Assembly: GCF_000174415.1 (NCBI RefSeq)
Contig: NZ_ACJM01000006.1
Location: forward strand, 1-64,000
Direction: 5' to 3'
Origin: Dethiobacter alkaliphilus AHT 1
Lineage (GTDB): Bacteria; Bacillota; Dethiobacteria; Dethiobacterales; Dethiobacteraceae
DNA: 64,000 nt
Below the pieces are notes generated by a model. The model was not told where the DNA came from, made no database searches, and was given only the letters and a program-made list of their open reading frames with translations. The position numbers and the translations under genes were made by a program. Shown here in pieces: positions 8,753 to 61,293 of this stretch (position 1 is the stretch's first letter; each line of letters opens with the position of its first letter).

Positions 8753-8782
8753 GTGGACAGAGGGACAGGTTTATTTGTCCAC
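8753..8782 (+). repeat. REP palindrome (nik side, left)
   Basis: A 30-bp imperfect palindrome: arms GTGGACA and TGTCCAC around GAGGGACAGGTTTATT. Same family as the copies at 59613, 60444 and 61264. It lies between the nik operon and the Spo0A-controlled spoIIGA promoter. Confidence 0.85.
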
Positions 8783-14234: not shown

Positions 14235-14283
14235 TATGGACAAATAAACCTGCCTGTCCTCGCAGAGGGTCCCTCTGTCCATA
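14235..14283 (-). repeat. REP palindrome (nik side, right), variant with insertion
   Basis: Arms TATGGACA and TGTCCATA. The inside reads AATAAACCTGCCTGTCC, then a 17-mer GTCCTCGCAGAGGGTCC, then CTC; the 17-mer recurs on the opposite strand at 31491-31507. The orientation is opposite to the copy at 8753, so the pair encloses the nik operon as inverted repeats. Confidence 0.75.
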
Positions 14284-31479: not shown

Positions 31480-31586
31480 GTGGGACACGGGGACCCTCTG
31501 CGAGGACGGACCATAAATTGCATTACTGCAAAAAAAGGTCCGTCCCCAAATTGCACTGCAAAAAAAGGTCCGTCCCCAAATTGCAC
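31480..31586. repeat. REP-related block with two exact 30-bp tandem repeats
   Basis: Starts with GTGGGACACGGGGACC and the 17-mer shared with the REP copy at 14235. Then a 30-bp unit (CTGCAAAAAAAGGTCCGTCC followed by CCAAATTGCA) occurs twice in tandem, 31526-31555 and 31556-31585, after the tail of a degenerate third copy. A related word is found in the hisS leader (38922-38945). It lies between mraZ and the zinc-ribbon gene. No unique spacers are present. Confidence 0.75.
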
Positions 31587-54993: not shown

Positions 54994-55022
54994 TGGGACA
55001 CGGGGACAGGTCAACTGTCCCA
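54994..55022 (+). repeat. REP-like palindrome, GGGACA variant
   Basis: Arms TGGGACA and TGTCCCA around CGGGGACAGGTCAAC. It belongs to the same family as the GTGGACA copies, with a compensated base pair change (A-T/G-C) in the arms. It lies in the leader of the CcdA-like gene, at the right seam of the sulfur island. Confidence 0.75.
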
Positions 55023-55050
55023 TTTTCCACCAAACTACAGGAGTGATCTA

Positions 55051-59610: not shown

Positions 59611-59612
59611 CC

Positions 59613-59650
59613 ATTTGTGGACAGAGGGACAGGTTTATCTGTCCACAAAT
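59613..59650 (+). repeat. REP palindrome flanking the RAYT gene (3' side)
   Basis: The longest copy: 11-base arms ATTTGTGGACA and TGTCCACAAAT around GAGGGACAGGTTTATC. It lies five bases from the end of the transposase gene and is inverted with respect to the copy at 60444. Confidence 0.88.
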
Positions 59651-59655
59651 GTGCT

Positions 59656-60411
59656 CTATATTTTACTTAACAAACTTTTTGAGAGTCCGGTTACTCTTGC
59701 AAGTTGCCGCAAAGGTACGTCAACTACAGCTTTGATTCTTTTAATAGTGGCATTCCTTTGGCACTTATCCATTTTTTTAATTTCACGTGCGCATACACCA
59801 ATTATCCCTTCGATGATCTCTTTTACTTCATCGTCCGAAATTGAAGGCTTATCTTCATACTCCAGACATTCATCTTCGTTAGGTGTATTTACATATTCTT
59901 TAAATGATTCAAAAGAGTTATAGCCAGACTCTGCAAACAGGTTTAACGAATAGCTTCCTGTTAAAGTAGAGGCCCTCACATATTCGTTGTAGCTACTCCA
60001 ACGGTATTCTGACACAAGTTTCACCATGCCTGCTTTTACAGGATTACGTAGGATATAGCGAAATACCGTGAGAAAATAGCGATTACTCTCTACAGGTTCG
60101 CTTCTGAATCTTTCCTGAAACAAATGCCCAATTCTCCCGTGCCTTTTGTTAAAATAGAGCACATAACTGCCACATATTCTTTTTATTATTGTTGCCAGCG
60201 GCTCGTCATTAACCTTAAGCAAAATATGGATATGGTTGTCCATGAGACAATAACAAAGAATTTCACACCCACTAACCTTCTCGATATACTTTAAAATCTT
60301 CAGAAATTGTCGCCTATCTTCATCATCAATAAATACAGCCTCACGATTTACTCCACGCAAGATGATGTGATAAAGTCCAGTTGAGCTCAATTTACGTGCT
60401 GTTCTGGGCAT
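59656..60411 (-). CDS. REP-associated tyrosine transposase (RAYT, Y1_Tnp/TnpA_REP)
   Basis: A 251-residue HUH-family single-strand transposase. The HUH pair is His60/His62 in MDNHIHILLK, and the likely nucleophile is Tyr119 in FRYILRNPVKAGM; IGHLFQERFRSEPV is a further family mark. A C-terminal HTH (VPLRQLARVTGLSKSLLSKI) is typical of Firmicutes members. RAYTs are thought to mobilise REP palindromes. This one is flanked on both sides by inverted REPs, and similar palindromes occur at several other places in the window. A LexA box lies in a promoter upstream. Confidence 0.9.
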   Translation of the reverse strand: MPRTARKLSSTGLYHIILRGVNREAVFIDDEDRRQFLKILKYIEKVSGCEILCYCLMDNHIHILLKVNDEPLATIIKRICGSYVLYFNKRHGRIGHLFQERFRSEPVESNRYFLTVFRYILRNPVKAGMVKLVSEYRWSSYNEYVRASTLTGSYSLNLFAESGYNSFESFKEYVNTPNEDECLEYEDKPSISDDEVKEIIEGIIGVCAREIKKMDKCQRNATIKRIKAVVDVPLRQLARVTGLSKSLLSKI

Positions 60412-60443
60412 TTAACCACCTCACATTTCTACCGGATTAAAAA

Positions 60444-60473
60444 GTGGACAATTAAACCTGTCCCTCTGTCCAC
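60444..60473 (-). repeat. REP palindrome flanking the RAYT gene (5' side)
   Basis: Arms GTGGACA and TGTCCAC around ATTAAACCTGTCCCTC, the reverse orientation of the 59613 copy. It stands 33 bases upstream of the RAYT start codon. Confidence 0.88.
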
Positions 60474-61189: not shown

Positions 61190-61293
61190 GGAAATGACCT
61201 CCCTCTGTCTCAAATGGCGAGAATAGATGGGACAAATTGACCTGTCCCCTTTGTCTCGAAAACGTGGACAAAAAAACCTGTCCCTCTGTCCAC
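61190..61293 (-). repeat. REP array downstream of relA
   Basis: One clean copy at 61264-61293 (arms GTGGACA/TGTCCAC) starts two bases after the relA stop codon. Next to it are a diverged GGGACA-type copy (about 61228-61257, TGGGACAAATTGACCTGTCC) and a faint third (about 61194-61211, GACCTCCCTCTGTCTC). Quality falls with distance from relA. Confidence 0.7.

Follow-up and report, generated by a model that had tools for sequence, protein, structure and literature searches.

A RAYT of the TIRYT kind in Dethiobacter alkaliphilus and its probable cognate family of REP-like hairpins

RAYTs are the best-studied bacterial transposases that are kept single-copy together with a population of tiny repeats. 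In RAYTs of groups 2 and 3, a GTAG 5' of the hairpin is read along with loop or bulge bases (Corneloup 2021, PMC8266576). A further kind was described by Di Nocera 2013 (PMC3733652), namely RAYT-like genes located between terminal inverted repeats (TIRs) sharing GGGGWSAS, for which the names TIRYT and TIRtron were introduced. These TIRs, some of which contain self-complementary tracts or form dimers, were held to be unrelated to GTAG REPs, and the main text of that work names no Firmicutes. Most TIRYTs were placed in subclass 2.1, mapped in the same work to group 1 in the scheme of Bertels et al. 2017, which carries C-terminal helix-turn-helix (HTH) domains and near which automatic and manual searches gave no REP-like sequences (Quentin 2018, PMC6006769).

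Here we analyze a window of 64,000 nucleotides, positions 1 to 64,000 of contig NZ_ACJM01000006.1 of D. alkaliphilus AHT 1 (genome G000; 3.11 Mb in 34 contigs), and propose that it very probably holds a TIRYT-type RAYT (subclass 2.1 / group 1) together with a cognate family of REP-like hairpins. The gene and the palindromes of the window are as follows.

59656..60411, minus strand: RAYT / TnpAREP-like HUH-Y1 transposase, 251 aa (open reading frame, Pfam, fold)
60226..60234, minus strand: HUH motif H60-I-H62 (invariant in the 28-row and 54-row alignments)
60040..60057, minus strand: catalytic tyrosine motif Y119-ILR-NP, the class 2 signature Y---NP (Y119, N123 and P124 invariant in the same two alignments)
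59662..59712, minus strand: C-terminal helix-turn-helix-like end, residues 234-250, RQLARVTGLSKSLLSKI (AlphaFold2 helices 234-241 and 245-250)
59612..59651, plus strand: REP of subfamily A, downstream flank, 14-bp stem, core toward the gene (DNA fold -13.4 kcal/mol, z -7.3)
60444..60473, minus strand: REP of subfamily A, upstream flank, core toward the gene (pattern search, sequence model, fold)
61264..61293, minus strand: REP of subfamily A near the RAYT locus (pattern search, sequence model)
61228..61257, minus strand: REP with C-type 5' arm GAGACAAA and B-type 3' arm TGTCCCA, a likely chimaera (sequence model)
8753..8782, plus strand: solo REP of subfamily A (pattern search, sequence model)
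54995..55024, plus strand: REP of subfamily B, arms TGGGACA/TGTCCCA (sequence model)
14237..14260, minus strand: shortened relative GGACAGGCAGGTTTATTTGTCC, a weak match (sequence model, E 0.1)

The earlier note had recognized a complete HUH/Tyr1 transposase here, and this is borne out. The complete reading frame matches Pfam Y1_Tnp (PF01797, E 1e-16), placing the protein in the HUH-Y1 superfamily, and NCBIfam NF047646 (REP_Tyr_transpos) aligns near full-length with 74.5 bits (E 7.8e-21), 5.5 bits short of a cut-off of 80 that is a curated annotation threshold rather than a biological feature. The AlphaFold2 model, built with 54 related sequences (mean pLDDT 92.5), has as its top structural match the complex of E. 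coli TnpAREP with a REP hairpin (4er8; Z 18.3, 162 residues aligned), which is also the sole match of a sequence-profile search of the PDB (E 7.2e-7). With both the Y---NP signature and the TnpAREP fold present, the protein is a class 2 RAYT. IS608 comes next in the fold comparison (Z 11.7). The IS200/IS605 transposases share the HUH-Y1 catalytic core and the recognition of a hairpin, here predicted; however, IS608 and ISDra2 score Z 10-12 only, the present protein is longer with an extra C-terminal domain, and no multi-copy gene-carrying unit is found. The extra helices occupy residues 193-250 of the model, and HTH_23 matches occur in 20 of the 54 aligned family members, though the 251-aa protein itself has no Pfam HTH match. 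Phage or plasmid cargo was considered and rejected, the searches giving one weak phage match and 28 plasmid records, all below 60% identity.

The two palindromes flanking the gene are oppositely oriented, with both cores toward it, as the earlier note had stated; the distances given there, 5 bases from the stop and 33 before the start, measure 4 bases from the stop codon and 32 bases ahead of the start codon. Its description of the repeat as GTGGACA/TGTCCAC arms around an asymmetric core also holds, with four perfect copies of GTGGACA-N16-TGTCCAC in the window (8753-8782 and 59617-59646 forward, 60444-60473 and 61264-61293 reversed; 0.00 in shuffles), except that the downstream palindrome extends to 40 bases, CATTTGTGGACAGA...TCTGTCCACAAATG. 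Three related palindromes that it had not listed lie at 61228-61257, 54995-55024 and 14237-14260, with the same or a shortened core and other arms. Five bases separate the chimaeric REP from the sequence-model match at 61263.

In the whole genome, GGGACAGGTNNANNTGTCC has 34 matches against 0 for the reversed-pattern control, far above chance, and a sequence model trained on 22 elements detects 78 at E<0.02, the training set included. By their arms, the elements divide into three subfamilies, A with GTGGACA/TGTCCAC, B with TGGGACA/TGTCCCA and C with GAGACA/TGTCTC, which have the core RGGGACAGGT in common; a strict rule assigns 30 to A, 20 to B and 8 to C, the remainder being variants or unassigned by the rule. 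Hybrid elements, combining the 5' arm of one subfamily with the 3' arm of another, occur at C8:131810, C13:11671 and 61228-61257, as expected if exchange or deletion takes place at the common core, suggesting, as far as the sequences tell, such events in their history. The best DNA fold of subfamily B is a different, inner hairpin that pulls part of the core into the stem, so that a single hairpin geometry for all elements is at most tentative.

Placement is predominantly extragenic. Of the 79 elements that could be read, 63 fall outside crude open reading frames and 16 inside, whereas random positions drawn from these stretches are 14% outside and 86% inside, an intergenic enrichment for which the earlier note had proposed a test. 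Half of the repeat places (25/50) are solo and half clustered, as direct tandems, often with 3-9-base gaps, or as inverted pairs. As short palindromes in many copies, mostly extragenic and clustered, the elements thus have the properties of REPs. At one place (C11:101243-101273, L226) the contig ends 7 bases past a repeat, so that the repeats may break assemblies.

The repeats tend to lie downstream of genes, 20 between convergent and 2 between divergent genes by crude gene calls, which would suit host elements such as terminators, RNA-stability hairpins or a regulator binding site, with the RAYT merely flanked by two of them, all the more as REPs of other systems have roles in the host. Convergent gaps are only modestly in excess when repeat-bearing gaps (14/39) are compared with repeat-free ones (21/108), and a known structured RNA is rejected as the identity of the repeat, an Rfam search at the repeats giving no significant family and just one sub-threshold chance match. 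Moreover, one core is common to three arm subfamilies, the copies nearly always go with a RAYT, and the asymmetric core is tightly tied to RAYT genes across related loci while the arms vary (see below), making a purely host-derived origin most improbable. A secondary host function of the repeats is compatible with the RAYT/repeat explanation.

Inverted neighbors in this genome point inward in 9 cases and outward in 1, with spacers of 33-193 bases of largely unrelated content. In eight relatives, inverted neighbors within 450 bases are inward 23 times and outward once among the places listed, giving 32:2 when pooled (p 7e-8). The inward geometry recalls REPINs, REP doublets forming a hairpin (PMC3116915); unlike these, the spacers here vary as described and many copies are solo or in direct tandem. 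As the RAYT gene itself sits in the exact inward layout of the repeat pairs, and as the published name is terminal inverted repeats, gene and repeats could alternatively constitute an IS-like unit moving together, the dispersed repeats being leftover ends or MITE-like deletion derivatives. However, the RAYT of the window is single-copy, its distant paralogues being about 32-41% identical over the aligned part, and half of the repeat places are solo. A comparison of the DNA enclosed by inward pairs gives low scores with the RAYT region and mostly low ones between pairs, on which ground deletion derivatives are rejected; an IS-like unit is accordingly regarded as improbable.

Having weighed these alternatives, we return to the RAYT with its own repeat family and to its class. 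Like the REPtrons of E. coli, Stenotrophomonas and Marinomonas (groups 2 and 3; PMC8266576), the system combines a single-copy RAYT of the same catalytic fold (4er8) with a palindromic extragenic repeat that is dispersed over the genome and flanks the gene in inverted copies. In those REPtrons, however, the GTAG guide lies 5' of the hairpin, whereas here nothing is strongly conserved outside and the constant motif lies inside. The canonical GTAG REPtron was rejected because the unpaired GT[AG]G 0-2 bases 5' of the hairpin is absent: no conserved tetranucleotide is present in the 5' flanks of the 58 classified elements, and the GTGG of subfamily A pairs within the stem and has no counterpart in B and C. 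The kinship with gammaproteobacterial REPtrons drawn in the earlier note is therefore not upheld. In the flanks, a pyrimidine is favored ahead of the 5' G and the 3' side tends to be rich in A/T, and there is no more than that, which gives no basis for assigning a cleavage site.

Judged by the inverted repeats, the RAYT instead fits the TIRYT/TIRtron class (subclass 2.1, group 1): subfamilies B and C carry GGGGACAG, matching GGGGWSAS exactly, and the gene-flanking subfamily A has AGGGACAG, one base off. Common to both are the RAYT-like HUH-Y1 gene, the inverted repeats with GGGGWSAS and moderately abundant repeat families with dimers (PMC3733652, PMC6006769); the C-terminal HTH or DnaA_C-like domain of the class has a putative counterpart here in the helices at residues 234-250. 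In contrast to the described TIRtrons, the repeats here are hairpins of REP type, in which the core stays constant and the complementary arms differ by lineage, and most cores in Firmicutes read GGGGACGG, which the published motif does not cover. We therefore regard the element as a TIRYT whose repeats resemble REPs but differ in architecture from the GTAG kind. Among the papers searched, for exact strings, none was found on these cores as bacterial repeats.

The distribution among relatives largely follows the RAYT. GGGACAGGTNNANNTGTCC occurs 12 times in one of 119 relatives (G061), where it flanks that genome's RAYT, and once each in three others. Repeats with GGGACA arms reach at least 4 copies in 15 of 76 genomes with a RAYT match and in 1 of 44 without (Fisher p 0.005), absence counts being approximate as many of these genomes are fragmented. 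The exception, G023, is 75% complete and has 4 GGGACA-arm repeats with no RAYT match. It was thus largely right that genomes without the RAYT would also lack the palindrome, and since the repeats lie much above chance and nearly all RAYT-less relatives are without them, neither chance-level occurrence nor equal abundance in such relatives speaks against a RAYT with its own repeat family, as the earlier note had proposed.

We further compared 111 RAYT loci, partly related by descent, drawn from whole genomes of relatives, the paralogues in D. alkaliphilus and 80 named loci (Firmicutes, Prevotella, Treponema, Actinobacteria and others). Core elements adjoin the RAYT gene in 104 of the 111, across several phyla. 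[AG]GGG[AT]C[AG]G lies within 300 bases of the RAYT in 96 loci, and 8 of the 15 loci without that motif show the same inverted arrangement with [AG]GGGACG[T/C]. Around the genes, 211 cores point inward and 45 outward, against an expected total of about 10. With a single element chosen at each locus and no selection for a stem, the sequence flanking the core pairs perfectly over at least 6 bp in 49 of the 96 loci, compared with a mean of 4.5 and a maximum of 9 in 300 shuffles in which 5' and 3' sides were swapped between loci; by a strict rule for stems, 26 of the 96 have no stem of at least 4 bp. Among 81 loci that had been selected for core and stem, 78 different arms occur, with core positions reaching up to 2 bits. 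The hairpins therefore keep one fixed core, and the paired arms change from lineage to lineage.

The type of core tracks the RAYT tree (18 changes versus 39.6 when shuffled). Residues E100 and S246 correlate with core type (ACAG or ACGG) through only two supported independent changes, and could be its specificity determinants; on so few changes, a core base set by residues of the HTH or catalytic domain is not adopted as a reading. Plasmid-borne members from Proteobacteria carry the core, as GGGGACAG in Pseudomonas and as GGGGTCAG in both Rhodospirillum and Skermanella; long complementary arms are rejected there, the arms being short or absent. For Legionella and Collinsella a significant inverted repeat was looked for and none found, and the arm rule is hence best supported for the Firmicutes-rich set. 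Some related loci (e.g. L132 and L114) have the core GGGGACG, the complement of which includes CGTC, by which the CGTC REPs of Di Nocera, said to be without a transposase, are tagged; a link between the two is possible from this resemblance.

The comparison of the 111 loci reveals that a transposase class described as being without such repeats has them, providing a large RAYT subclass with the REP-like repeat that had been reported missing. We propose that a 5' arm particular to the lineage, a core [A/G]GGGAC(A)G... that hardly varies and a 3' arm complementary to the first together form the element, a short imperfect palindrome. In single-stranded DNA, for example the lagging-strand template, the arms would pair, leaving the core exposed or half-exposed near the hairpin apex; the transposase would then bind the hairpin, cut using Y119 and rejoin, which would scatter elements singly, in tandem and as inward-facing pairs. 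We infer that the RAYT binds and cuts these hairpins, with the core as the recognition element, and the elements are presumably mobile and still moving. Against this last point only, the RAYT may have been domesticated for another role with the repeats as fixed fossils, as its single-copy state, shared with other class 2 RAYTs, and the presence of arm-swapped chimaeras and decayed copies would allow. Many subfamily A copies are nevertheless identical or nearly so across 30 bases and the catalytic residues are intact, leaving past mobility alone a somewhat unlikely account.

For the TIRYT class as a whole, we tentatively suggest, at a little short of an even chance, that it is a REP-generating system, in which a near-universal core GGGGAC is read by the catalytic domain and a complementary stem evolves freely. 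If so, this modular target would give each transposase a private family through its stem, and the split between 'TIR' and 'REP' would be artificial. The constant core with variable complementary arms makes the cognate repeat of a member predictable from its gene flanks.

The same genome holds four RAYTs and one IS200. The second RAYT is listed here.

C7:141447-142211: second RAYT, with its own repeat family of GGGGACGGACC elements with TGCA-type arms

Its element is GGGACGGACC, and GGGACGGACCTTTTTTNGCA of this family, in which core and arms differ from those of the window family, has 33 copies in the genome against 0 in the control. The family flanks the gene on both sides, at 141393 (+) and 143045 (-), pointing at it. 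A third, distant RAYT (L020, C8:100497-103826) is flanked by the long inverted repeat GGGGTCAGG / GGGGTCAGGTTTAAT, of which one further copy lies on C28. With repeats of their own at the second and third genes, different RAYTs in one cell adjoin different families. RAYT/repeat pairs are probably orthogonal, even two in one genome, and could be used to ask what part of a folded single-stranded target an HUH enzyme reads. The remaining RAYT (L018, C7:64527-67856) has 181 aa, no C-terminal domain and no detectable flanking repeats, overlaps a neighboring reading frame and is possibly a decayed copy. A tandem pair of the second REP family, GGGGACGGACCTTTTTTTGCA, lies within the window at 31527-31576.
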